From an uncultured Fibrobacter sp. (GTDB taxonomy: Bacteria > Fibrobacterota > Fibrobacteria > Fibrobacterales > Fibrobacteraceae): a stretch of 64,000 nt of DNA. The position numbers and the translations under genes were made by a program. Positions 10,118 to 23,362 of this stretch are shown here, piece by piece. The stretch lies in NCBI RefSeq assembly GCF_947166265.1, contig NZ_CAMVDO010000017.1:1-64000 (forward strand), given 5' to 3'. The notes beneath the pieces are model-generated. The model was not told the origin of the DNA and searched no databases. It saw only the letters and a program-made list of their open reading frames with translations. Positions within the stretch are counted from its first letter, which is position 1; each line of letters opens with the position of its first letter.

Positions 10118-10129
10118 CAAGTTATCAAT
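10113..10129. promoter_or_regulatory. Xylan-gene palindrome, GH43 copy (7943-10012 gene)
   Basis: The sequence gtggacaagttatcaat. Its centre (10121) is 54 bp from the near edge of the -10-like hexamer GGTATC (10072-10067). It overlaps the stop codon of the upstream GH95 gene. Confidence 0.65.
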
Positions 10130-13091
10130 ATGCCTTGATTTTGAGCGTTTTTTGCAGGTTACCGCTCTTGACAACCGCAATATAGGTTCCCTGCAGCAGG
10201 CGACCATTTTTGCCGAATTCCACCAGGGAATTACCGCTACCCTGCCGTTTGGCCACCATGTTGCCGTTCGCCGTATACAGGCGGACCTCGAAATCGCCGT
10301 CGGTATTCACCATCAGGGCCACCGAGGCGCGGGCCATCGACACTTGACGAACCGAGAGCGCGCTTGCCATGCGAGCCACCGTCGGAATGGCCGTCGGGTC
10401 ACTATCGAAGTTGTACCAGTCCACATTCATCAAGAAGTCGGTTGTACCGGAATAAGTGAACTTGAGAGTCTGTTCGCCCTTGTCGAGCGCGATCTGAGTC
10501 GAAGTTTCGTACCAGTCGTTCCAGCCCTTGGTCCTTGCGGGGTCCACCGTAAGCATTGCCAGAACCTTGCCCGTAGAATCGCTTACCGTAATGGTCGACT
10601 TTTCTTCGGCAGCGCTTGCCACGCGGGCAGTAAGCGTATAGGCGCCAGCAGTCGGAACCTTCACCAGGTATTCGCTGTAGTCGCCATCGTTAATCCAGCC
10701 GAGATTCGGCACGCCTTCTTCGTCGGGTTCAATCTGCACGCCATCCATGGCGGTGTAGCTTTCGGCTTCGAGCTTGCCCGGGAGCGTGACCGGCTCGAAC
10801 GGCTGATTCGTGAGTTTGAGGTTGCCGTCGAATTCGTAAACCTTGCCCGGCACCGTCGTCGTGGTGAACTTGTTAGAACCATTCACAATGTTCAGCGTCT
10901 GGCCCACATCGGACTTGACCGCCACATAAGTGAGCTTGCCACCCTTCCAGGCCATGGAATCGATTTCGAAACCGCCGCGGGCGCGAATGCCCTTGATGCT
11001 ACCGTCTTTCCACTGCGAAGGCAATGCCGGCAACAAGTTGATTCGGCCGTTATGGCTCTGCATGAGCATTTCGTTCACGCCCGAGACCGCACCGAAGTTA
11101 CCGTCAATCTGGAACGGCGGATGGGAATCGAACAAATTATTGTAAGTCTTGTTCGGCGTCAGCAGCATGCGAATCATGGTGTAAGCGTGATCGCCGTCGT
11201 GCATGCGGGCCCAAAAATTAATCTTCCAAGCCAAGGACCAGCCGGTCGCATCGTCGCCGCGCTGCTTGAGCGTAACGCCTGCGCCCTTGATCAAGTCGGG
11301 AGTTTCTTCCGGCGTAATCTGCGCACTCGGGAAAAGACCGTACAGGTGCGAAATATGGCGGTTCTTGTTGTTCGGGTCATCCCAATCCTGCAGCCATTCC
11401 GTAATTTGGCCGTACTTACCCGTCTTTGTAGGCGGCAGGCGCTTTACCACCGCTTCCATCTTGGCGCGGGCCTCTTCGTCGACGCCCAGAATCTTGGACG
11501 CCTCAATGGTGTAATTCAGCACGTCGCGAATAATCTGGTTGTCCATGGTCGGGCCAAAGCAAACATTGTAGCCGCCGTGGTCATTTTCCGGAGAATCACT
11601 CGGAGCAGTCACCAAGTATTTGTTGCCTGTTTCGGGCTCTTCAACCAGGCTATTCACGAAGAAGAGCGCCGCCCCCTTCATGGTCGAATAAACGTCTTGC
11701 AAGTAAGCCTTGTCAGTCGGGTTGAACAAGAAATGTTCCCACAAGTGCGTGCTGAGCCAGCCGGCACCCGTCGGCCACAAGCCCCACGCGCCATCGATAG
11801 GTGCGGTACGGTTCCAGAGGTCGGTATTGTGGTGTTCCACCCAGCCTTCGTCTACGCCCCAGTGCACCTTGGCAGTCTTTTCGCCCTGCGGCACCATGCT
11901 CTTGATTTTGTCGATGAGCGGCCACACGCATTCGCCGAGGTTCGCCGTCTCTACCGGCCAGTAGTTCATTTCGAGGTTAATGTTCGTGGTGTACTTGCTG
12001 CCCCAAACCGGGTTCGTATCCTTGTTCCAAATGCCCTGCAAGTTGGCGGGCTGGCCACCCTTGCGCGAGCTCGAAATCAGCAAGTAACGGCCGAACTGGT
12101 AATGCAGTTCCACCAAGGAGGGGTCATTCGTGGAATTGAAATTCTTGACGCGAGTGCTGGTAATGTCGCCTGCGCTCTTGTCGGGTTCGCCCAAGTTCAA
12201 AGAGACGCGATTGAAAATCGTCTGGTAATCCTTGAGGTGCGCGGCAAGCAAGTCATCGTAAGACTTTTTTGCGACCTTCGACATAATCTCTGTTGCGATT
12301 GCACCCGGGTTGCCCGAGACATCGTTATAAGACTTGAAGTTCGTAGCCGTGGTGAGCACGAGCATTGCAGAATTTGCGCCCTGCACGTTGATTTTGCCGT
12401 TCGCGACCGAAACCGTGCCGCCGTCGGCCACCACGTTCAGGCGATTTTGGAACTTGATGGAATTCACCGTCACGTCGTAAACGAGCGTGTTGCCGCTGCT
12501 CGACATGCTGTTGCTACGGTGCGGAGTCGTCATGGTGGCGCCAAAGCTCACCGAGCCGCCTTTGTCGGCCGTGAGGTGCACCACGATCACGTGGTCCGGG
12601 TAGCTTGCAAAATATTCGCGCGTGTAGTTGACGCCGCCGGCCGTGTACGTCGTTTTTGCGATAGCCGTTTTGAGGTCGAGTTCGCGGCGGTAGTTTGTCG
12701 CGCCCGAATGCGACGTGGTAATCACCAGGTCACCCACCGGCTGGAAACTTGCCGGGCCTGGGCCAATCATATAGTTAGACACGATAGATTCCGCCGTGCG
12801 GTAGTCGCCGCGGAACATGGCATCGCGCGCGTCTTTCAAGTGGCTTGCCGCCCCCTGCTTGTTGTTGTCGCCCGGGCCGCCCGACCACACGGTACTTTCG
12901 TTCAGGCCGATAATGTCTTTTGTAACGCCACCGTAGACAATGCCGCCCATGTAGCCGTTGCCAATGGGCAAAGCATTCGTAAATTCGGTACCCGCATCGC
13001 TATTGTACCACAATTTGAGGGGATTTTCGGCAGCAACAGCAAACACGGCTGCACACGCCAAAGTACCAAACACTATGCCCAGCGTTCTCAT
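10125..13091 (-). CDS. Secreted GH95 alpha-L-fucosidase/galactosidase with galactose-binding module
   Basis: GH95 inverting enzyme acting on terminal alpha-linked L-fucose or L-galactose, as found on xyloglucan and complex cereal xylan. A signal peptide covers residues 1-21. The N-terminal GH95 domain shows PIGNGYMGGIVYGG and LNESTVWSGGPGD. The helical barrel carries NLQGIWN and TTNINLEMNYWPVE (likely the Asn pair). It also carries APSDSPEN (likely the general acid Glu) and FQIDGNFG (the conserved Asp). A CBM6/CBM35-like module (GKLEAESYTAMDG ... FLMNVDWYNF) covers about 765-895, followed by a tail richer in Ala/Val than its neighbours. Substrate choice between fucose and galactose is not resolvable here. 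Confidence 0.9.
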   Translation of the reverse strand: MRTLGIVFGTLACAAVFAVAAENPLKLWYNSDAGTEFTNALPIGNGYMGGIVYGGVTKDIIGLNESTVWSGGPGDNNKQGAASHLKDARDAMFRGDYRTAESIVSNYMIGPGPASFQPVGDLVITTSHSGATNYRRELDLKTAIAKTTYTAGGVNYTREYFASYPDHVIVVHLTADKGGSVSFGATMTTPHRSNSMSSSGNTLVYDVTVNSIKFQNRLNVVADGGTVSVANGKINVQGANSAMLVLTTATNFKSYNDVSGNPGAIATEIMSKVAKKSYDDLLAAHLKDYQTIFNRVSLNLGEPDKSAGDITSTRVKNFNSTNDPSLVELHYQFGRYLLISSSRKGGQPANLQGIWNKDTNPVWGSKYTTNINLEMNYWPVETANLGECVWPLIDKIKSMVPQGEKTAKVHWGVDEGWVEHHNTDLWNRTAPIDGAWGLWPTGAGWLSTHLWEHFLFNPTDKAYLQDVYSTMKGAALFFVNSLVEEPETGNKYLVTAPSDSPENDHGGYNVCFGPTMDNQIIRDVLNYTIEASKILGVDEEARAKMEAVVKRLPPTKTGKYGQITEWLQDWDDPNNKNRHISHLYGLFPSAQITPEETPDLIKGAGVTLKQRGDDATGWSLAWKINFWARMHDGDHAYTMIRMLLTPNKTYNNLFDSHPPFQIDGNFGAVSGVNEMLMQSHNGRINLLPALPSQWKDGSIKGIRARGGFEIDSMAWKGGKLTYVAVKSDVGQTLNIVNGSNKFTTTTVPGKVYEFDGNLKLTNQPFEPVTLPGKLEAESYTAMDGVQIEPDEEGVPNLGWINDGDYSEYLVKVPTAGAYTLTARVASAAEEKSTITVSDSTGKVLAMLTVDPARTKGWNDWYETSTQIALDKGEQTLKFTYSGTTDFLMNVDWYNFDSDPTAIPTVARMASALSVRQVSMARASVALMVNTDGDFEVRLYTANGNMVAKRQGSGNSLVEFGKNGRLLQGTYIAVVKSGNLQKTLKIKAY

Positions 13092-13169: not shown

Positions 13170-13186
13170 GTTGATTTTTTATCAAT
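13170..13186. promoter_or_regulatory. Xylan-gene palindrome, GH95 copy
   Basis: The sequence gttgattttttatcaat. Its centre (13178) is 54 bp from the near edge of the -10-like hexamer GCTAAT (13129-13124). It overlaps the stop codon of the unrelated metallophosphoesterase gene, yet keeps its spacing to the GH95 promoter. Confidence 0.6.
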
Positions 13187-14120
13187 GGGAGTGAGTTAGC
13201 TCCTCAAACATGGGGCGGTATGCATCGAGCATCACCTTGACCCCGCGGATGCACGTACGGGCCGCAAGGCCTATGCTTGTGTCTAATTCTATCAGAAAAT
13301 CTTCTCTACGAAGATCATTTTCGGCATACGGGTTCTCGTCGGGATACCCGACGGGATTGCAAAGCAACAGATGGCATTTGCCCTGCAAATCCACGAACGT
13401 CTTCTTGATGGCCGTATGAGTATGTCCAGCTTGGTAAATGCTTCCGTCATCCAAGTTTTCAAGATACGGGGCTCCATGAAAATAGAAGAAGTTCGAACAC
13501 GGGTCATGTATGTAGCGTTCCGCCATCCCGAATTCCAGTGGCAAGAAATGAGACATCATGATCTTGGGCTTCTTTAAAGAAAGATCACGCAGCACGACAT
13601 CGTAGTGCTCCCACAGACGCCCCGGATTATTACGCATGTAGTTCCAATGACGACCGTCGAACCAGCGTGTTGACCATAGCATCTGATTCAAGATTTCCGA
13701 TGCTCCCGGTGTGTGCATGTACTTGAAATCGCACATACCCATGCATCCGGCAATGCCATCCTGCATGCAGTTTTCTAACAGGCGAATGTTCGGAATTTTT
13801 GCGGACTCTTTCAAGAAAAAATCCATCTTGCCTTCGGAGGTCGGGAAGTCTTTTTCAGCACCGAAAACTCCAGCCTTTTCGGTAATGATGTCATGGTTGC
13901 CAAAACACACATAGACAGCGCTGTACTTGGTTGCAATGAATTTTAGAAACTCCACGTAGGTAAAGTAGTTGTTCGCGATATCGCCCGCAATGCAGCACAC
14001 ATCCGCCGGTAAAAAATACCGTTCGAAGAATTCCTCGAAATACCGATGCAACAACGATACCGTCCGACTGCGCAGCGAGTAAAAATCTACGTGTAAGTCG
14101 CTGATGAAAAAAAAAGTCAT
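13182..14120 (-). CDS. Calcineurin-like metallophosphoesterase with an ORF6N-derived C-terminal tail
   Basis: Cytoplasmic phosphoesterase; the natural substrate is unknown. Metal-binding motifs are in order: ISDLHVDF near the start, GDIANN, GNHDI, SHFLPL and AGHTH. The ATG at 14120 is preferred to the TTG two codons upstream because GGAG lies about 8 nt before it; it follows the upstream stop codon by 2 nt, so translation is probably coupled. The last 22 residues (IRGVKVMLDA then YRPMFEEL) are not phosphoesterase sequence. They match two separated parts of the ORF6N protein encoded at 14471-15541, joined at a 7-bp shared sequence, so the natural 3' end has been replaced. It sits at the edge of the defence-like island. 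Confidence 0.8.
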   Translation of the reverse strand: MTFFFISDLHVDFYSLRSRTVSLLHRYFEEFFERYFLPADVCCIAGDIANNYFTYVEFLKFIATKYSAVYVCFGNHDIITEKAGVFGAEKDFPTSEGKMDFFLKESAKIPNIRLLENCMQDGIAGCMGMCDFKYMHTPGASEILNQMLWSTRWFDGRHWNYMRNNPGRLWEHYDVVLRDLSLKKPKIMMSHFLPLEFGMAERYIHDPCSNFFYFHGAPYLENLDDGSIYQAGHTHTAIKKTFVDLQGKCHLLLCNPVGYPDENPYAENDLRREDFLIELDTSIGLAARTCIRGVKVMLDAYRPMFEELTHSH

Positions 14121-14122
14121 GT

Positions 14123-14458
14123 TCAACTCTCCTCATCCTCTTCGGCAGTGCTACATTCTTCGTCGTACATTTCTTTATGTGGGGCATATTCGTTCGGAAC
14201 AACATACAACAGGTATTGTAAGAAATTTCTGTAATCCTCTTTCGCGAACACGCTGCCCATGCCAGAAACGCCTCCAAGTACGACATCTGAGTAGCGGTCC
14301 AGAACATGGATGTTCCGTTCATGGCGAAACATTAACCTGTACAACATTGCGGCGGCTTGATCCTGATGCTGACTCATAAGTTCATTAAGCCCAGCTATTG
14401 ATTCCAAGAGTTCCTTAGGCAATTCAAGTTCTTTCTCGTTCTCTGCTTTTTTCTTCAC
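14123..14458 (-). CDS. Hypothetical acidic 111-residue protein
   Basis: Not recognised. The frame starts at GTG (14458) with AAAGGAG about 8 nt upstream. It ends 2 nt before the metallophosphoesterase start and begins 12 nt after the ORF6N gene stop, so the three probably form one transcript. The protein is mainly helical in appearance, without signal peptide or membrane segment. Its C-terminus is strongly acidic (about the last 15 residues are rich in Glu and Asp). A role as a partner of the phosphoesterase is only a guess from coupling. Confidence 0.6.
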   Translation of the reverse strand: MKKKAENEKELELPKELLESIAGLNELMSQHQDQAAAMLYRLMFRHERNIHVLDRYSDVVLGGVSGMGSVFAKEDYRNFLQYLLYVVPNEYAPHKEMYDEECSTAEEDEES

Positions 14459-14470
14459 AGTAATTCTCCT

Positions 14471-15541
14471 TTATTTGATTGTTTCTCGCTTTAGTCGGGA
14501 CAACAATTCCTCAAACATGTTCCGGTATGCATCAACGTCGTCCAGTTGCACGATGGTCGTAATCTTGTTGCCGGCATCTTTGGAAGACGCCCCGCAATGG
14601 TACAACTTTTCGCTCTCGGTCTTGAAATCCACGAGAATGTAGCGGTCGTGGAACTTGTGCATGGCGGGTTTCTTGTCAATCGATACGTCCGGTCGGGCGG
14701 CCCGATAATCGGCAAGCATGTCATCTGTCATGCGGCTTCCACCGAGCAAGTCGCTGAAAATCAGGACGGAAACGCCTTTGCGCACATTCCGCAGCAAATT
14801 CAGCGTCTTGACATCTACATAGTTATCTACAATCAGCACCGATTTCTTCGCCATGCCGTAAATCTGCGCGTAAGCGACGTCCGCCTCCAGCTTGTGCCCG
14901 TTCAGAATTAGGAAGTGCCTGAAAGACGAAGGATCAACGAAGTTTTCCATGACCATCCGGAGGTCCACATTGATTTTCCCCAGATCGCTCCTGATATCGC
15001 GAACTTCGCCAGAAAGTTCCTTTACTTCGGCGGAAACGGCCGCGATTTCATGTGTATTTTGAGCAGTCTGCGCAGCAATCTGGGCGATTCCCGCAGTTCC
15101 GAGCAGTTGATGGTTTTCAGCAACGATATAGTCCTTCATCTGCTTGAAAAGGCGAATCAAAGCCTTGCTTTGAGCAGTCGCCCGTTCGCCCTTGAGCACC
15201 GTCATGAGCATGTAGATACCCTGTTCGGTAAAGGCGTAGGGGGCATATTTTATGTTAGTCCCCCGTCGATTGTTGTTCAAGGACGAAATTTTCGACCTTG
15301 AACATGTTTCCGCCTCCTTTAAAGTTAATTGGAAACGAAAATCTTCATCAAATTTTTCGATATTATTTTTCACCTGTTCGTTAAATCTCTTTGTCGTATA
15401 CCCGTAAATCTCGGCCAGGTCGGCATCAAGCATCACCTTGACCCCGCGGACAGTATATATCCGCGATTTGAGCAGAGATTCATCGATAAGCGGGAACTCC
15501 GATTTGACTGGCGCAACCGCCATATCATTCTTTTTAGCCAT
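14471..15541 (-). CDS. ORF6N-domain DNA-binding protein with PLD-like C-terminal domain
   Basis: A putative DNA-binding protein of the phage/accessory ORF6N (KilA-N/Bro-like) group. A GGAGG site lies about 4 nt before the ATG. The ORF6N domain covers about residues 20-115 (YTVRGVKVMLDADLAEIYGY ... YAPYAFTEQGIYML). A helical, probably coiled-coil stretch covers about 150-195. The C-terminal part (about 220-345) resembles a phospholipase D-like/nuclease fold, with SVLIVDNYVDVKTLNLL and KFHDRYILVD. It heads the probable operon with the 111-residue protein and the phosphoesterase. Fragments of the same kind of protein occur at 13196-13256, 20153-20357 and 26394-26862, so this is the only intact copy in the window. 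The function is unknown. Confidence 0.75.
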   Translation of the reverse strand: MAKKNDMAVAPVKSEFPLIDESLLKSRIYTVRGVKVMLDADLAEIYGYTTKRFNEQVKNNIEKFDEDFRFQLTLKEAETCSRSKISSLNNNRRGTNIKYAPYAFTEQGIYMLMTVLKGERATAQSKALIRLFKQMKDYIVAENHQLLGTAGIAQIAAQTAQNTHEIAAVSAEVKELSGEVRDIRSDLGKINVDLRMVMENFVDPSSFRHFLILNGHKLEADVAYAQIYGMAKKSVLIVDNYVDVKTLNLLRNVRKGVSVLIFSDLLGGSRMTDDMLADYRAARPDVSIDKKPAMHKFHDRYILVDFKTESEKLYHCGASSKDAGNKITTIVQLDDVDAYRNMFEELLSRLKRETIK

Positions 15542-15604: not shown

Positions 15605-15627
15605 CGAGGTCAAAAATTTTGACCTCG
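15605..15627. repeat. Perfect 23-bp palindrome between the McrC-like and ORF6N genes
   Basis: Arms of 11 bp (cgaggtcaaaa / ttttgacctcg) around a single A. It lies downstream of the McrC-like gene and upstream of the ORF6N gene, so it could be an operator or part of a terminator. A related 29-bp inverted repeat with one mismatch lies inside the ORF6N gene at 15275-15303. Confidence 0.6.
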
Positions 15628-15719: not shown

Positions 15720-17648
15720 CTAAGAAAATTTTACAAGTGCGTCAACCACGCCTAATTCAGTGACTTTGTTTTTCTGCAGGCTTTCATCGTCCCATTTCTG
15801 GGAATTACCGTTATCCCAAATTTCATGGGGCCACACTTGGAATATTTCGCACTTTTCGTCTTGAACAATTTGACGAATTTTTTCGTAATCTTTATCCAAG
15901 GCGCCTTTCAGCGAAACGTTCACGGCACTTTGTTCCAGCGCGAGTATCAGGCAATGCGGCGTTCCTGCGGGTTGGAACACGCGGCCCACTAGCGCATGGA
16001 AATGGCGGTCAACAAAATTCTGGAGCCGTTCTGCATAATCGGGTTTTTGCCAGTCCGGCAAATATACGGCCCAGAAGTAGTAATTGTCGCCCAGCAGCTC
16101 CAAAAAATCATCGCGGAATCTCTTTCGGGTCTTCTTCTTGAAATCGTCGCGCAGGGACGAATGCTTGGAGGTGTATGTCTTTAGCACGTACAAGAAGTTT
16201 ATGTTGTACACCTTCAGCAGGAGCGTGTCGCGGTCAAAGAGGCGATTGCGGAAATGACGGTTGCGCTTACCCCACATGTCATCGCCGGGCTTGATCGGGT
16301 CTTTCGATTCGCCTTTCTTCGAAAAATACGGATCGTCGTACTGGCCATCGCTTTCGTATTCCGGGACAAATCCGCGGATAAAGAAGTTCGGCGTGACGCT
16401 GTAGCCTTCCGTCACCGAGTCCCTATAACGTACCCCTTGATGAACGCCCGAACTATAGCATTCGTCATTGCCATCGACAAAATCGGGAGAGAAAAAGTCC
16501 TGGACAATGTTCTTGGCGTAGGTGTACTGCTTTGCAACCGACTGGCCGAGCACCTCGTTTTCTTCTTTATAATACTTGCTATCGCCAATGTGCCAAATAC
16601 TTTCGCTCCCGTCGGCGAATATCAGCGACTTTTCCTTGTACAGGTGGTCGATTATCTTGCCGTCTTCGTTTTTCTTCAACTTCGCGACTTCTTTGTCCTG
16701 GTCGCTGATGAGGCTGTCTATCATCGCCTCGAAAACATTGTTGAACGAATTTGCAATCAGGTATTCCTTCGCCTTTACGTTCTTGTTGGTGTACCTGGCA
16801 CCCCAACGGAAAAACGCCTCCATTATGTTGTAGAGTTTCAGCAGGCGGTCTTCGAAATACTTGTACTTGATACGGCGAAGTTCGCGCAGCCCGCGTTCGC
16901 ATTCCAGAAGGCGTGCGAACTCCCGCCCTTTGAGCGGAACGTAGAACTCGCTCTGCGGCATTTCGAACCCGAACTCGTCCTGGATAAACTTCATCGCGGA
17001 GAAATACAGAACAAGCAGACGGTCGTCCAAATCAAAAACCTTCTTCTTGTTCACCAGTTCCATGTAGATTGGCGAATCGCCTTGAATAAAAGGCGTCTTT
17101 TTCGCGATGGTCCGCTGCCAGTTAATCCGGTTGTTTCCGCTATGCTTGTTCTTGGCGACAAAGACGAACAGGTTCTGGTTTTTCTTGTAGAACAGTTCCA
17201 TGCTGCTCATGATATCGAGCAGCGTCGCATAGCGGGCATCTCCCCTGAATTTGGAATGTTCCATGTGGTCCGGGGAACGGACGCCGGTCATATCGCTGTC
17301 GGTGCGGTATTTGTCGATAGCGGAATAGAGCCAAGTCGAAAGTGACGAGAGAAACCTGCGCTGAACGTTCTTTATGGGCGACTCGCCCTTTCCGAAAATA
17401 TCCTCGCCGTTCGCAGCGATCGGCACACCGAAAGCCTTTGTATTGTTGCTGTCGAGAAAGACCTTGGGCAGCACGAATACAGGATTCCCGTTGAAAAAGC
17501 AATAACCGACGCCATTTATTTTGGCACCCGTGTCGGCCACTTTGGTATTAAAACCGCTCTCGCTCTGGAAATCGCTATTGCCCCTATAACCGATAACCTC
17601 CTTGAGGTAATCGGTACTGTAGGCAAATTCTTCGAACAGGAAAATCAT
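15720..17648 (-). CDS. McrC/LlaJI-like restriction endonuclease subunit
   Basis: The nuclease partner of the McrB-like GTPase encoded immediately upstream. Together they would cut foreign DNA in a GTP-dependent way. The ATG at 17648 (MIFLFEEFAY) gives the usual McrC-like start; a TTG two codons earlier is possible. The gap to the GTPase gene is about 16 bp and no strong ribosome site is visible, suggesting coupling. A PD-(D/E)XK-like nuclease motif is visible as IWHIGDSKYYK in the middle of the 642-residue protein, with an LlaJI-type context. No methyltransferase gene is nearby, which fits a modification-dependent (type IV) system better than an LlaJI restriction-modification system. Confidence 0.75.
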   Translation of the reverse strand: MIFLFEEFAYSTDYLKEVIGYRGNSDFQSESGFNTKVADTGAKINGVGYCFFNGNPVFVLPKVFLDSNNTKAFGVPIAANGEDIFGKGESPIKNVQRRFLSSLSTWLYSAIDKYRTDSDMTGVRSPDHMEHSKFRGDARYATLLDIMSSMELFYKKNQNLFVFVAKNKHSGNNRINWQRTIAKKTPFIQGDSPIYMELVNKKKVFDLDDRLLVLYFSAMKFIQDEFGFEMPQSEFYVPLKGREFARLLECERGLRELRRIKYKYFEDRLLKLYNIMEAFFRWGARYTNKNVKAKEYLIANSFNNVFEAMIDSLISDQDKEVAKLKKNEDGKIIDHLYKEKSLIFADGSESIWHIGDSKYYKEENEVLGQSVAKQYTYAKNIVQDFFSPDFVDGNDECYSSGVHQGVRYRDSVTEGYSVTPNFFIRGFVPEYESDGQYDDPYFSKKGESKDPIKPGDDMWGKRNRHFRNRLFDRDTLLLKVYNINFLYVLKTYTSKHSSLRDDFKKKTRKRFRDDFLELLGDNYYFWAVYLPDWQKPDYAERLQNFVDRHFHALVGRVFQPAGTPHCLILALEQSAVNVSLKGALDKDYEKIRQIVQDEKCEIFQVWPHEIWDNGNSQKWDDESLQKNKVTELGVVDALVKFS

Positions 17649-17664
17649 GAACAACCAAAAAGTT

Positions 17665-19548
17665 TTAGGCGGTCACTTTCTCAACTTTCAGGTTTTCCAT
17701 AATCTTGTTCACGATAGCTTCGGCATCTTTACCGAAAAGCGATTGGAACGTCACGCTATTAATTTTTCCGTCGCCATCCCCATACGGGAAGTGGAACACG
17801 GCCTGCCGTTCGGTCTCGTCTTTATACACGGAATCCCACAAATAGAACAGGACCTTGGAACGGAAATCGTCAAACAAAATTTTCAGATCATCACGCTTTG
17901 GCTTAATGAAGAACTCGCCCATCTGCTTGTCTTCGCTTTGCGTGGCGTCGTAAATGTCGGCATTAACTTTTTTCAAGAAATCGAGCCACTTGTATTTTGA
18001 ATCACCAATTTCTATTATAAAACCAGCCTCAGAGTGGTCATAATTGATAGGCACATACTCCCAGTCAAAGCGACGCTTGAATGCGCTGTCCATGGGGAAC
18101 AGCGACTGGTCACTGGTGTTCATGGTGGCGAGAATGTTCAAGTTCGGCGGGAGCTTGAGCTTGCCATCGCCAACTTTAGTTTCGTACTCGCTCCAAATGG
18201 TTTTCAGAATGGAATCTTCTTTAAGCCATTCAGCAAAATCGCAATCCGCATCAATTGAATATTGCGAGAATCCTTCACTGTCGCGGTCAAGCAACTGGAA
18301 AATATCACCGAAAATCTGGGCGCAGTTCCCGCGGTTGATTTCTTCGATAACTAGGAATACTTGAATATCTTTTTCTTCTTTGTCATTCTCGCCATTCCCG
18401 TTGTCATTCCCGCGAAGGCGGGAATCTCTCTGCAGATACAGCTCCCAAGCCGCAGCGTAAGCCTTTGCGAAAACCTGCGGAACAAAGGAATAGGTGATTG
18501 TACCATCATCTTTCGAAAATTGCAATTGTGCTTTTACCGCGGCAGATAAGTTTGCCTTTTTATATTGTTCTTCACCTATCCCAGAATGTTTCACAATTTC
18601 ACTTATTGTTTTGCCATTCAAAGAATTAGCATATCGCAATCCGAATAATACAATTGCACTCGTTTTATCAGATTCTTCATTATCTGAAAAGAACTCGGAT
18701 AACTTCTTGGCAAGTTGTTCTTCGGACAACGATCCATCATCGCTGCACTGAACTTTTTTAGGCTTGTAGGCGCCCACGAATTGCGCATAATCGTAATCAG
18801 GATGGAACGAGGTGCGGAATACCTGTTGATTTCGAACGGCTTCATTAACCTTAAAAGACTTGCCCGTACCAGGAGCGCCGAAGAAGATTTTTTGTTTTGT
18901 CATATTAACCTCAACTACTGCTGGTGATGGTTCTGGCGAAGGAGTACTATTTCCTTTATAAACTTTATCATAGTATTCTTGATAAATATCAAGCATGTTC
19001 TTCAAGTCATCTTGAAGAATCTCCTCAGACGGAATATTTTGTTTTGAATATTTCTTATAAAAAATTGTACCCTTTTGGTATTTTTTTCCAAGGTCGGTTA
19101 TATCGTTTCCAAGATTGATATTTTCATCTGATAAAAAACTACGATTGTTAAGTTGAGCCGATATACGAGCTGCATTTTCGCGAAGCGCCCTGATGGTTTC
19201 ACTCGCAGTGGAATTTTTCCCAGCCTCTGTAACACCTTGATTGAGAGTCAAATACAATGAGTTCCCATCTGAAGATAGCAGATAAACGATATACACGCCA
19301 TTTTGAGCGCTTAAAGTGATGTCTTTTCTAAAAATTGCCAACCAAGGAACCTTAGCCCAATTTCCTTGACCAACACTTCCGACAACTTTATATTCCTTGC
19401 TATCAACTAATTGGGTTTCATATATTTTTTGAGGAGCAACATCACATATAGAATTGTAGATTGATGCATCTTTTCCAAATATCTGACTTTTCCCAGGAAT
19501 ATAATCTTCCAGAAAATAATTCAATATTTCTGTTAATTGCTGTGCCAT
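17665..19548 (-). CDS. McrB-like GTPase subunit carrying an in-frame palindromic repeat
   Basis: AAA+ GTPase that would recognise target DNA and drive the McrC-like nuclease. An MrcB-type (DUF3578) N-terminal DNA-recognition domain covers about residues 5-130. A linker follows, then Walker A GAPGTGKS at 224-231, Walker B in FLVIEEINRG near 400, and the McrB-type signature ATMNTSDQS near 485. Residues about 373-395 (RDSRLRGNDNGNG and a Lys/Glu-rich run) are the translation of a dispersed intergenic palindrome at 18406-18425. It sits just before Walker B and keeps the frame. The gene starts 4 nt after the regulator's stop, with a GAGGGG site inside that gene's end. Confidence 0.88.
   Translation of the reverse strand: MAQQLTEILNYFLEDYIPGKSQIFGKDASIYNSICDVAPQKIYETQLVDSKEYKVVGSVGQGNWAKVPWLAIFRKDITLSAQNGVYIVYLLSSDGNSLYLTLNQGVTEAGKNSTASETIRALRENAARISAQLNNRSFLSDENINLGNDITDLGKKYQKGTIFYKKYSKQNIPSEEILQDDLKNMLDIYQEYYDKVYKGNSTPSPEPSPAVVEVNMTKQKIFFGAPGTGKSFKVNEAVRNQQVFRTSFHPDYDYAQFVGAYKPKKVQCSDDGSLSEEQLAKKLSEFFSDNEESDKTSAIVLFGLRYANSLNGKTISEIVKHSGIGEEQYKKANLSAAVKAQLQFSKDDGTITYSFVPQVFAKAYAAAWELYLQRDSRLRGNDNGNGENDKEEKDIQVFLVIEEINRGNCAQIFGDIFQLLDRDSEGFSQYSIDADCDFAEWLKEDSILKTIWSEYETKVGDGKLKLPPNLNILATMNTSDQSLFPMDSAFKRRFDWEYVPINYDHSEAGFIIEIGDSKYKWLDFLKKVNADIYDATQSEDKQMGEFFIKPKRDDLKILFDDFRSKVLFYLWDSVYKDETERQAVFHFPYGDGDGKINSVTFQSLFGKDAEAIVNKIMENLKVEKVTA
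18406..18425. repeat. Dispersed 20-bp palindromic element inside the McrB-like gene
   Basis: The sequence attcccgcgaaggcgggaat is the same family as the copies at 4199, 37389 and 53622, but lies within a coding region. It is read as SRLRGND in the GTPase frame. Confidence 0.85.
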
Positions 19549-19552
19549 AATT

Positions 19553-20050
19553 TTACCCCTCGATTTCCATCAATACAATCGGAGCTTTTTCGCCCATGCT
19601 TGGCAATGCCCCAAGAGTGTTGTAGTCGATAAATTCTACGGCTTCTTCGTAATCCATATCATCAGACAGCATCAGTGAACGAACCATTTTTTCATATGCA
19701 TAAATGACACGACCATCTTCGCTAACGCCAACAACGGCATCTACAAAATCAGGCTTTTCAAGAACTACGCTATCCTCATAGCCGTGCTCGCAAAGATATT
19801 CCTTGAGAGAATCAAGCGTGAGCGGAGGAAAATCGGCATTCTCGATTTGCTTGACAAAATCACTCGGACTTAATTCGAAGAAATTGGCGAGTTTTTCAAT
19901 AATTTCGAGAGAAACATTACGGCGGCCGTTTTCAATGTCGCTCATATAGCGACGGCCCACACCTGTTTCAAGAGCAAGTTTTTCCTGCGAAACACCTTTC
20001 TGCGAACGCAGAGCGCGAATTGCTTTGCCAATATTATTTTGAAGAGACAT
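19553..20050 (-). CDS. XRE-family HTH regulator of the McrBC-like operon
   Basis: Probable controller of the downstream McrB/McrC-like genes. The helix-turn-helix domain covers about residues 6-62 (QEKLALETGVGRRYMSDIENGRR), like restriction-modification control proteins. The C-terminal 100 residues form an acidic extension of unknown role. The stop codon lies 4 bp before the GTPase start, so the three genes form one operon. Direct repeats of TAWATAGTGCA at 20086 and 20112, just upstream, are candidate autoregulatory operators. The control protein without any methyltransferase is worth noting: it may hold expression of a toxic nuclease low. Confidence 0.85.
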   Translation of the reverse strand: MSLQNNIGKAIRALRSQKGVSQEKLALETGVGRRYMSDIENGRRNVSLEIIEKLANFFELSPSDFVKQIENADFPPLTLDSLKEYLCEHGYEDSVVLEKPDFVDAVVGVSEDGRVIYAYEKMVRSLMLSDDMDYEEAVEFIDYNTLGALPSMGEKAPIVLMEIEG

Positions 20051-20392: not shown

Positions 20393-23362
20393 TCAACTTC
20401 TAATTAGTTTTTCCGTATACTCACACATGGGGTAATTCGTGCAACCGACAAACCAGTAGCCGTTCTGCCCTTTCCGTTTCACCAAGAAGCCACCGCAGTT
20501 GGGGCATGGTTTCGGGTTTAGCAGGATTTTCGGGTCTCGCAGCGTATAGCGGCACCGCGGAAAGTTGGAGCACCCCACAAAATGGTTCCCGTTATGTTCA
20601 ACTTTCAATAGGGTTCCGGTCTGGCAACGCGGGCAACGGGCACTTGATTCGCTGTTCTGCGTAATGGACGTGTAACAAACAGCCTGCGATTCGGGGAATT
20701 CCTTGAAGAACAGAGACGGCCTGTTGCTGTCGGTCAAGATGAACGTCCTGTTCTTTGTGCGGGTGATGGCGACGTAAAAGAGTCTCCTTTCTTCGGCAAA
20801 CCGATAGTCTTCGGAATCTGTCAATACGAGGTTCAGCACCTTATCGTCCTGTATTTGGTTCGGGAACCCGAGCTTGTCATTCTTGAAATTCAGCAAGATG
20901 ACGTTGTCGGCCTCCAGCCCCTTCGACTTGTGCACAGAAAGGAAATCGATGTTCAATTCGGGTATGGGTAGGTATTTCAGTTTTTCTTGTTTGTTCTGGT
21001 GCGTAATCCTGAAAAGGCCGGATTCCTCAAGCATGTCCCTGTCGTAATTGGTCCTGCCCAGAAGCAATATTGAGGCCTGCATGCCGAATTCCGAGACAAT
21101 TTTCTTGATGGCCTTATCCAGCGCCTGACTAGGGTCTTCTTTGTACCCCCAGAATACAAGCGGGTAGTTAAGCGACTTGTCCGAACGCAGGTCTTTTTTA
21201 AGTTGCTGCGGATTTTGAAGAATAAATCGAGACGCTTCGTCTATGAGTTGTTGCGAATTTCGGTATGTTTTCTCGATTTTCAGAACTTCGGTATACCCGA
21301 AGTACTTCTGGAATTCAGTAAATAGAGAAATGTCGCTCCCGGCAAATCGGTAGATGGATTGCCAGTCATCACCGACGCAGAATAGCTTGGCTCCGGTCCG
21401 TTCGACTATACTCTGCAAAAGATTGAACCTGGACTTGGATATGTCCTGATATTCGTCAACAATAACATAGCGGTAATTGTTGATTCTGCAACCGGTACGC
21501 ACCCTGTCGGCCGCAAGGTTGATCATGTCAGAAAAATCTATCGCGTTCTTTGACGAGAGGAAATTCTGGTATCCGGTCAAAAGAACCTTGATTATGTCGA
21601 GGAACAGGTTTGTCCTTTCGAAAAGGAACGGGTTGTATTCATTATGGACAACACTGTTACGGAGCGTCTCGATGTCTTCTAGCCTGTAGTTGTTTGACTT
21701 GAACAACGTGATAAAGGTGCAGCAGAGTTTCATGAACTCGGCGATGTACTTGTTACTTTTGCTCTTGTAGACGGTATTGAAAATATCGAGAAAATCGCGA
21801 GGCTTGAATTCCACATGGTTTTCTACCAGAAGTTCCTTCAGTTTGCTCAAAAGGACGCCTTCGGAATTGTAGTAGGAATATGTCTCAATTAGCTTGGTGC
21901 CATATAGTTTGTGTAGCTCGCGCTTCCATCTGATTCCGTCTAGATATTTCTGCTCTTCTATCGGAGGCAACCATGGAACGGTAAAGTTCTTGCTGATGCC
22001 GAAGTGTTCCAAATAAATTTTGTAATCCGTAAGGTAAAAGTCGGGCTTGTACGCTTTTCGGAACGGGTCGCCTCCGTCGTGTTCATACTGTTTCTCATAT
22101 TCATAGTTAATACCATTCAAGAAGAGAAAATTCGCGATTTTCGTTTCTTCCAGGCTCTTAACTTTCTCGTTGTTCAGTGTGGTGAGCACTTTTGCCCTGT
22201 CGGCGCCAGTTTCGTTGATATACTTTTCTTGTTCGTATCTCGACTTGATGGTTTCAAGGTCAGCATTCTTCTCGATCTCGTACAACTCTCCGATGGATTG
22301 ATACTTTTCCATGTCTTCGGGAATTTCGAGATAGTACGCAAAATACTCCGTCAGGGTTTTTATCAGGTCGGGATAGTTGTTGAGTTCTTTCTCGAAGAAA
22401 TCATGGACGAAAGCACTCAACTCGGATTCGTCAGCTACTTCAGGGCGCGCGCCGTCGGCTTGTTTGATGATATCGAGCCCCAGTTTGTGGAATGTCCCCG
22501 CCTCTACTTGGATTCCGAGCTTGCCCTGAATACGGTCAGTCATTTCCTTGGCGCTCTTTTTTGTGAACGAAAGGAGCAAGATATCTTTCGGGTCGACGGA
22601 CTTCTGTTCGCAAAGGTACTTTACCTTCGCGGCAATTGTAAGCGTTTTGCCGCTACCTGCGCCAGCCAGCACGAGGATGCGGTCTTCGTCGTTGATGACG
22701 GCCGTGCGCTGCTGCATGTCCAGAGATTTGCCGTCAATATTCGAAAGCATTTCGTCGCAGCGTTTGGACTCTTTTTGAACGAATACTGCGTTTGATCGTT
22801 GGAAATGATTGCGGAACGAACTGCAGATCGCTTTCAAACTCGCGAAGCTTTCGTATTCGTCATCGTCGCGGCGAACGTCGACTTTCTCTACATCCTTGTC
22901 GATGCCCTGCCATTTCTGGGTAAAACGAATTTCATCATAGTGCGTGACGTATTGTTTCGATAGTTCAGAAAGTTCTGAGAAGAATTCCGTTACACGAGGC
23001 ATTTGCGCCTGAATTGACTCTCGCCGTCTGATTTCGATATTTGTAGCAAGAACCCGGTTGGGGATATCCCCGTAGTCCGTCAAGAATTTGCTGAAATCAT
23101 TGAAGTCGTTAAATTTCTTTAGATGGCTGAACCTAGAGATTTGCTTGTACAGTTCGTTCCATTTTGTAAGGAAAGCGGTTTCTTCTTCTTTTTCAACATA
23201 GTGGGTCAGCAAGTTTTTCAGTTCAACCGTGAATGCGAAAAGTTGTTCATGGAAACCGGGAATTTTCTGGTCGAATTCGACCTCTAGCTTTTTGCGGCGC
23301 TTAAAATGTAGGGACGAAAAAAAAGCCAAAAAAGCAATAAAAAAAATGACCACAGTAACCAT
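20393..23362 (-). CDS. Membrane-tethered UvrD/HelIV-like helicase with nuclease-like insert and two zinc ribbons
   Basis: SF1A helicase of 989 residues. An N-terminal hydrophobic segment (about 2-17) followed by KRRKK suggests a membrane anchor. Walker A is AGAGSGKT at about 233-240; Walker B/DEXQ is YVIVDEYQDI. An insert in the middle (IANFLFLNGI, KPDFYL, IYLEHFGI, GTKLIETYS) has the spacing of a PD-(D/E)XK-like nuclease fold. The C-terminus has two topoisomerase-type C4 zinc ribbons (CPRC ... CSNFPRC and CPNC ... CTNYPMC). The ribosome site is weak, but the anchor supports this start. Located beside the McrBC-like operon, it may be a defence or repair helicase. Closest known relative: DNA helicase IV-type proteins. 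Confidence 0.85.
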   Translation of the reverse strand: MVTVVIFFIAFLAFFSSLHFKRRKKLEVEFDQKIPGFHEQLFAFTVELKNLLTHYVEKEEETAFLTKWNELYKQISRFSHLKKFNDFNDFSKFLTDYGDIPNRVLATNIEIRRRESIQAQMPRVTEFFSELSELSKQYVTHYDEIRFTQKWQGIDKDVEKVDVRRDDDEYESFASLKAICSSFRNHFQRSNAVFVQKESKRCDEMLSNIDGKSLDMQQRTAVINDEDRILVLAGAGSGKTLTIAAKVKYLCEQKSVDPKDILLLSFTKKSAKEMTDRIQGKLGIQVEAGTFHKLGLDIIKQADGARPEVADESELSAFVHDFFEKELNNYPDLIKTLTEYFAYYLEIPEDMEKYQSIGELYEIEKNADLETIKSRYEQEKYINETGADRAKVLTTLNNEKVKSLEETKIANFLFLNGINYEYEKQYEHDGGDPFRKAYKPDFYLTDYKIYLEHFGISKNFTVPWLPPIEEQKYLDGIRWKRELHKLYGTKLIETYSYYNSEGVLLSKLKELLVENHVEFKPRDFLDIFNTVYKSKSNKYIAEFMKLCCTFITLFKSNNYRLEDIETLRNSVVHNEYNPFLFERTNLFLDIIKVLLTGYQNFLSSKNAIDFSDMINLAADRVRTGCRINNYRYVIVDEYQDISKSRFNLLQSIVERTGAKLFCVGDDWQSIYRFAGSDISLFTEFQKYFGYTEVLKIEKTYRNSQQLIDEASRFILQNPQQLKKDLRSDKSLNYPLVFWGYKEDPSQALDKAIKKIVSEFGMQASILLLGRTNYDRDMLEESGLFRITHQNKQEKLKYLPIPELNIDFLSVHKSKGLEADNVILLNFKNDKLGFPNQIQDDKVLNLVLTDSEDYRFAEERRLFYVAITRTKNRTFILTDSNRPSLFFKEFPESQAVCYTSITQNSESSARCPRCQTGTLLKVEHNGNHFVGCSNFPRCRYTLRDPKILLNPKPCPNCGGFLVKRKGQNGYWFVGCTNYPMCEYTEKLIRS

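Follow-up and report, generated by a model that had tools for sequence, protein, structure and literature searches.

In this study, we found a calcineurin-like metallophosphoesterase (MPE) gene with a chimeric C-terminus in a 64,000-nt stretch of DNA (the window) from an uncultured rumen Fibrobacter sp. Sequence comparison indicates that the last 31–32 amino acids of MPE are foreign and come from a piece of a leader RNA together with the wreck of a defence-type ORF6N gene.

On the minus strand, the locus comprises, in order, genes for an HTH regulator, a McrB-like AAA protein (MrcB_N), a LlaJI-type restriction protein, ORF6N, a protein of 111 aa, MPE and a secreted enzyme that we take, from its sequence, to be GH95-like (Table 1). 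The stretch directly upstream of ORF6N (15720–20050), with its LlaJI-type restriction protein, McrB-like AAA protein and HTH control-type regulator, constitutes a McrBC-like restriction set; positions 20393–23362 encode a large UvrD/Rep-type helicase of 989 aa with zinc-finger-like C-terminal repeats, which matches PADLOC GajB-type and NCBIfam helicase IV. The genome containing the window (G000) is a draft of 89 contigs totalling 3.77 Mb; the assemblies of its relatives are drafts as well. Of 80 Fibrobacter genomes, 63 gave matches to the GH95-like gene and its upstream flank, the similarity in close genomes beginning at about 13186–13226. A tblastn search of plasmids with MPE gave no match.

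Table 1. Features of the MPE locus and its scar (window coordinates; query bases are those of the tail query described in the text)
Feature	Position	Strand	Remarks
Large secreted-enzyme gene (presumably GH95-like)	10125–13091	−	Bounds the island site on the right; conserved
MPE, calcineurin-like metallophosphoesterase gene with chimeric C-terminus, 314 aa	13182–14126	−	PF00149
Native part of MPE, up to ...DFLIELD, residue 282	13281–14126	−	Ortholog ends at 281–284
34-nt leader RNA fragment (GCATAGGCCTTGCGGCCCGTACGTGCATCCGCGG), translated ..SIGLAARTCIRG	13243–13276	−	Query bases 15–48; 34/34 in >20 places in relatives
ORF6N gene start fragment (CATCCGCGGGGTCAAGGTGATGCTCGATGC, RGVKVMLDA)	13222–13251	−	Query bases 40–69
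ORF6N gene end (GATGCATACCGCCCCATGTTTGAGGAG...) with island end and stop (YRPMFEELTHSH, stop)	13182–13226	−	Query bases 65–90
9-bp word CATCCGCGG	13243–13251	−	Common to leader and ORF6N pieces, at their joint
5-bp word GATGC	13222–13226	−	Common to ORF6N start and end pieces, internal deletion joint
111-aa gene (p111)	14123–14458	−	No family assigned; between ORF6N and MPE; order ORF6N, p111, MPE also in G097
Intact local ORF6N gene, leaderless	14471–15541	−	PF10543, E 8.7e-30; PADLOC PDC-S05, E 1.9e-100

The MPE sequence matched PF00149 over residues 3–238 (E = 2.4e-9; 38.3 bits, cut-off 21.5), and all metal-binding motifs (DxH, GD, GNH(D/E), H and GHxH) are intact, reading SDLH, AGDIANN, GNHD, MSH and GHTH in the translation. 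Since the PF00149 match ends at residue 238, the added tail lies outside the active-site motifs. Over 283 codons, MPE differs from its ortholog in the sister strain G097 by 17 bases and five residues (dN 0.009, dS 0.067, dN/dS approximately 0.13); although the changes are few, they indicate that purifying selection has maintained the fused gene. Given this selection on the MPE body, the enzyme probably retains its function and tolerates the tail.

The members of the genus Fibrobacter were searched twice for MPE. In the full-length orthologs checked, the stop was at residue 281–284, in most cases immediately behind DFL(V/I)E(V/L)x; only the proteins of the window (314), G097 (302) and G005 (322) and a distant, 30%-identical relative that stops at 266 depart from this length. 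The claim of the initial annotation that the tail is not native is thus borne out, and the observation lies far above chance. It might be argued that the phosphoesterase has long possessed this extension as a functional C-terminal motif, as its first 13 residues are common to two strains and the G005 protein is extended too; however, the part that the two strains share derives from the leader RNA, the G005 extension has no sequence relationship to it and the other full-length orthologs stop at the natural end, which leaves this explanation a practically negligible probability.

When the last 109 bases of the MPE gene were searched in 61 genomes of the genus, the tail split into three pieces (Table 1). 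Only the two ORF6N pieces had been recognized before; the approximately 10 residues preceding RGVKVMLDA (SIGLAARTCIRG) are also foreign and are encoded by noncoding leader sequence, the leader covariance model matching the scar at 13276–13256 (E = 0.0034). The ORF6N start piece is identical to the ORF6N genes of six relatives (30/30; G066, G002, G069, G083, G033 and G076) and of G005 (31/31), while the ORF6N end piece is identical to the ORF6N end of G025 (26/26) and collinear with the ORF6N end plus GH95 flank of G102 (locus L162). Exact start and end pieces in the ORF6N genes of relatives, in the order start then end, uphold the derivation of the tail from an ORF6N gene. The remnant amounts to approximately 9 + 8 residues only and contains no complete ORF6N domain. 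At least part of the final THSH of MPE belongs to the island end or host flank.

The two places in the intact local ORF6N gene to which the initial annotation had traced the tail were located correctly: within its own genome, the tail matched this gene at 15423–15450 (27/28, E = 2.4e-6) and 14508–14533 (88%, E = 0.016). Compared with these local values, the exact matches elsewhere indicate that the scar pieces come from another ORF6N allele and that the local gene was mistaken for the source; a tail copied from the local gene was ruled out because the alleles differ. Adjacent pieces have the words CATCCGCGG and GATGC in common, as is characteristic of joints formed at short repeats. A join of ORF6N start and end by a short-repeat deletion, as originally proposed, is therefore supported by the GATGC shared at the joint. 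The longer word TTGATGC put forward for it is indeed present at both local ORF6N sites, but the scar reads CTCGATGC and the core needed is GATGC. As had also been claimed, the phosphoesterase frame continues through the scar, giving a chimeric protein that ends in ...DFLIELDTSIGLAARTCIRGVKVMLDAYRPMFEELTHSH before the stop codon.

Short microhomology at every joint, pieces of only 26–34 nt and an ORF6N gene close by would also fit break-repair template switching, by which two short ORF6N pieces were copied from 1–2 kb away and a second ORF6N gene never existed. We consider such a templated insertion very improbable, since the local gene differs whereas other alleles match exactly, the pieces keep the native order of leader, start and end, and the last piece is continuous with native flank in G102. 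Moreover, the leader piece has no source in its own genome, in which a search for an intact leader gave 0 matches.

Steps of the history are visible in three relatives, G097, G102 and G029. G097 contains leader, ORF6N gene, 111-aa gene and MPE in the same order, its MPE being 98% identical to that of the window. Its MPE shows the identical MPE–leader joint, GAATTAGACACAA followed by GCATAGGCC, and then the rest of the leader in the short form. The identical joint indicates that the MPE–leader fusion predates the ORF6N deletion, so that a single ORF6N deletion, as the initial annotation had it, does not account for the scar. The check proposed with the initial annotation, a search for an ORF6N gene at this place in a related strain, was positive: at the corresponding chromosomal position of G102, a whole leader and an ORF6N gene ending in YRPMFEELTHSH and a stop immediately precede the same GH95-like gene. 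This ORF6N gene is broken by a frame change and ends in GATGCATACCGGCCCATGTTCGAGGAGCTAACCCACTCCCATTGATAAAAAATC, which equals the right half of the window scar together with the flanking sequence, THSH and stop included. The complete ancestral order of MPE, whole leader and whole ORF6N gene was not found in any single genome examined.

On this comparative evidence, we consider the following history highly probable. A defence-type island upstream of the conserved GH95-like gene would once have held MPE and then a unit of promoter, leader RNA and ORF6N gene. Before the window genome and G097 diverged from their common ancestor, a rearrangement fused the last MPE codons to the middle of the leader, with loss of MPE's own stop. 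Later, a deletion at the 9-bp repeat CATCCGCGG would have joined the leader to the ORF6N start, and another at the 5-bp repeat GATGC would have joined the ORF6N start to the ORF6N end; the sequences at both joints are directly visible, and it is the mechanism that we infer. The short in-frame scar that remained supplies the last 32 codons and the stop of MPE, and the many similar copies in such islands offer substrates for recombination and deletion. An assembly artefact, in which repeated leader and ORF6N sequences were falsely joined in silico, would be conceivable in a draft of so many contigs, the pieces belonging to families repeated across the genus, but it is exceedingly improbable: the genome has no other leader copy to misjoin, the MPE–leader joint recurs in the independently assembled G097, and the right part of the scar is collinear with G102.

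The MPE gene has been broken elsewhere too. In G029, MPE is cut at residue 166 and joined to the leader fragment TTGCGGCCCGTACGTGCATCCGC, after which comes the ORF6N 5′ region with ATGGCAAGAAAA; the sequences indicate that this truncation is an event independent of the window scar. In G066 (L218; G066:C229, approximately 1330–1480), the first 14 codons of MPE are fused to SDGVKYHLSNMQKKGLLKRFSGRKEGYWEVLVDI and a stop, another chimeric scar in an island of this kind, whose added part, judged by eye, is apparently the end of an AlbA_2-type gene. The G005 ortholog (L014/L241; G005:C1:897111) carries a 40-residue extension (..DSPNDEAVAAMTEANKIASGKRKTRSYKNAKAMIKDILSE) that resembles the end of an antitoxin-type protein and looks like a second, independent read-through scar of MPE; at the GH95 flank of G005, a leader promoter remnant abuts the island end. 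The differing breaks among these strains indicate that the island end has been repeatedly rebuilt by deletions.

Where an island occupies the GH95 flank, AC(C/T)CACTCCCAT recurs immediately before TGATAAAAAATC (L162, 1560–1605; L326, approximately 1505; window, 13185–13196), and upstream of TGATAAAAAATC the genomes with other neighbours diverge. This junction of AC(C/T)CACTCCCAT and TGATAAAAAATC is a candidate island boundary or attachment end.

Microhomology-mediated deletions and in-frame fusion scars are part of general genome erosion. The MPE scar resembles them in its joints at 5- and 9-bp direct repeats, its lost interior and the read-through of the upstream frame, whereas it differs in consisting of three pieces that include a noncoding RNA leader, in having relatives that preserve successive states, and in affecting a gene end that is broken differently in G005, G029 and G066. 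Taken alone, the scar is ordinary genome erosion, although its steps are documented in sister strains.

The leader element is approximately 195 nt in length, with short variants that lack the inner hairpins. A covariance model (R1) was built from 22 diverse copies. In an alignment of 79 distinct rows fitted to this model, 25 of 53 base pairs showed changes on both sides, compared with 13 in shuffles, and cells with such changes numbered 246 against 72, with none of 500 shuffles reaching the observed pairs or cells; the original MAFFT alignment gave the same trend. Pairing was found in 96.8% of the cells, compared with 35–49% with the partners slid, although conservation of the leader is high enough to leave many base pairs invariant. 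The strong covariation marks the leader as a structured RNA. A sigma70-like promoter (TTGACT-N17-TATATT-like) precedes full copies, the pair of boxes occurring in 71 of 79 cases but in 16% of shuffled upstream stretches.

The leader was present in 61 of the 80 Fibrobacter genomes and in three genera of Fibrobacteraceae, and nowhere else in the phylum. A search of 84,980 species genomes with the exact leader-core pattern returned 61 stretches, all titled Fibrobacter or Fibrobacterales. No leader core was found in the viral contigs searched, which argues, at that sensitivity, against a phage-borne motif. Rfam 15 (4227 models), which reportedly should include most of a 2017 set of 224 RNA candidates, gave no relevant match to 14 leader loci at E ≤ 1, a tRNA and tmRNA search at divergent copies gave none, and we found no description of the RNA in the open-access literature searched. 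A match to Rfam DUF3800-VI (60.5 bits, above the gathering score) lies at L096 1430–1480 (minus strand), approximately 100 nt upstream of a leader copy and on the opposite strand.

To survey the genes behind the leader, 80 copies were chosen by score and not by context, and the first sizeable same-strand downstream ORF, found for 77, was scanned against Pfam. According to these calls, which are mechanical and include some first ORFs that begin inside the leader, the first gene encoded DUF1016_N (DUF1016/YhcG nuclease) in 25 cases, SLFN_AlbA_2 (Schlafen-AlbA_2) in 20 and ORF6N in 17, i.e., 62 of 77, the remainder including HsdR, a CdiA-C domain and an HTH_3 protein, once each. By the same calls, the distance from leader to start codon varies widely, from approximately 60 to more than 500 nt. 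Position upstream of genes on the same strand (62/77) and a promoter in front (71/79) are the arrangement of a 5′ leader. A terminator-like hairpin between leader and gene was found in only two of the 77 spacers, which is not the picture of a terminator-type riboswitch or attenuator, and a terminator/attenuator mechanism was rejected on this scarcity.

Position, orientation, promoter and covariation together suggest that the leader acts as a 5′ untranslated control element, and we somewhat favour the view that it is a cis-acting regulator of the defence-type gene behind it. Acting in cis from its own promoter, it would tune the expression of the DUF1016/YhcG nuclease, Schlafen-AlbA_2 or ORF6N gene. 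With hardly any terminators in the spacers, control at the level of translation, RNA stability or processing would be likelier than transcription attenuation. The stable structure, the own promoter, the repetition of units in arrays and the use of the leader as a deletion partner in several strains could also belong to a trans-acting RNA (a guide, an antitoxin-like RNA or an RNP partner) or to a mere recombination module that distributes gene units. This alternative appears rather unlikely to us, because an element standing in one orientation before genes of three unrelated protein families fits a shared 5′ leader and not a protein-specific partner RNA, and because a site serving DNA recombination alone should show no base-pair covariation. 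If cis regulation is taken further, the leader could represent a new class of cis-acting structured RNA, limited to Fibrobacteraceae and carried as a unit with its own promoter, that exerts joint control over defence-associated genes of three unrelated kinds (YhcG-type nuclease, Schlafen-AlbA_2 and ORF6N) and possibly senses infection or cell state; we offer this wider proposal tentatively, as a possibility of somewhat less than even weight.

The leader resembles structured 5′ leaders and orphan riboswitch candidates in Rfam (e.g., DUF3800-VI) in its length of approximately 195 nt, its covarying helices, its own promoter and its position upstream of genes on the same strand. It differs from these classes in lacking an Rfam 15 match, in its restriction to Fibrobacteraceae, in having hardly any terminator behind it, and in heading three unrelated defence-associated families, often with several copies per genome. 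The DUF1016 proteins behind the leader match PADLOC PDC-S02 and the ORF6N proteins match PDC-S05; these matches, like that of the window ORF6N gene, are strong and mark candidate defence genes, but the shared leader is no part of the definitions of PDC-S02 and PDC-S05. As in integron-type cassettes, each unit consists of one gene and a conserved noncoding segment, sometimes in direct arrays, whereas here the segment precedes the gene and carries the promoter; on informal inspection, no attC-type ends and no neighbouring integrase were noticed. The scar thus led to a conserved RNA family, missing from Rfam, whose members form one common leader to defence-type genes belonging to three unrelated families. 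If the leader regulates these genes, it would constitute a shared switch for defence genes and a means of tracing further ones in rumen bacteria, any gene behind it becoming a defence candidate.

Direct-orientation arrays of at least two leader-plus-gene units were seen beside LlaJI/McrB-type restriction genes at L088 (G083:C8:14000–28000), L098 (G032:C1) and L100 (G082:C1), the passengers being DUF1016, ORF6N and AlbA_2 genes.

ORF6N genes also contain long, mostly perfect palindromes near the end of the ORF6N domain, at approximately bases 200–300 of the gene. In the window, palindromes were noted at 15605–15627 and 15275–15303. The sample consisted of 60 Fibrobacter ORF6N genes together with L314, L316, L319 and L321. 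A palindrome arm of at least 10 was found in 36 of 56 genes, compared with 12 of 1120 synonymous-codon shuffles, and the arms vary between genes yet stay complementary (e.g., TTCTAGGGTCAAAATTTTTGACCCTAGAA and AACTTGATGTGCAAAAAATGCACATCAAGTT). These palindromes are possibly self-binding operators or inserted palindromic elements. Some ORF6N genes contain two to three palindromes in tandem, others have similar palindromes upstream of the start, and such palindromes are also present in ORF6N genes of Treponema, Bacteroides, Legionella and Parabacteroides.
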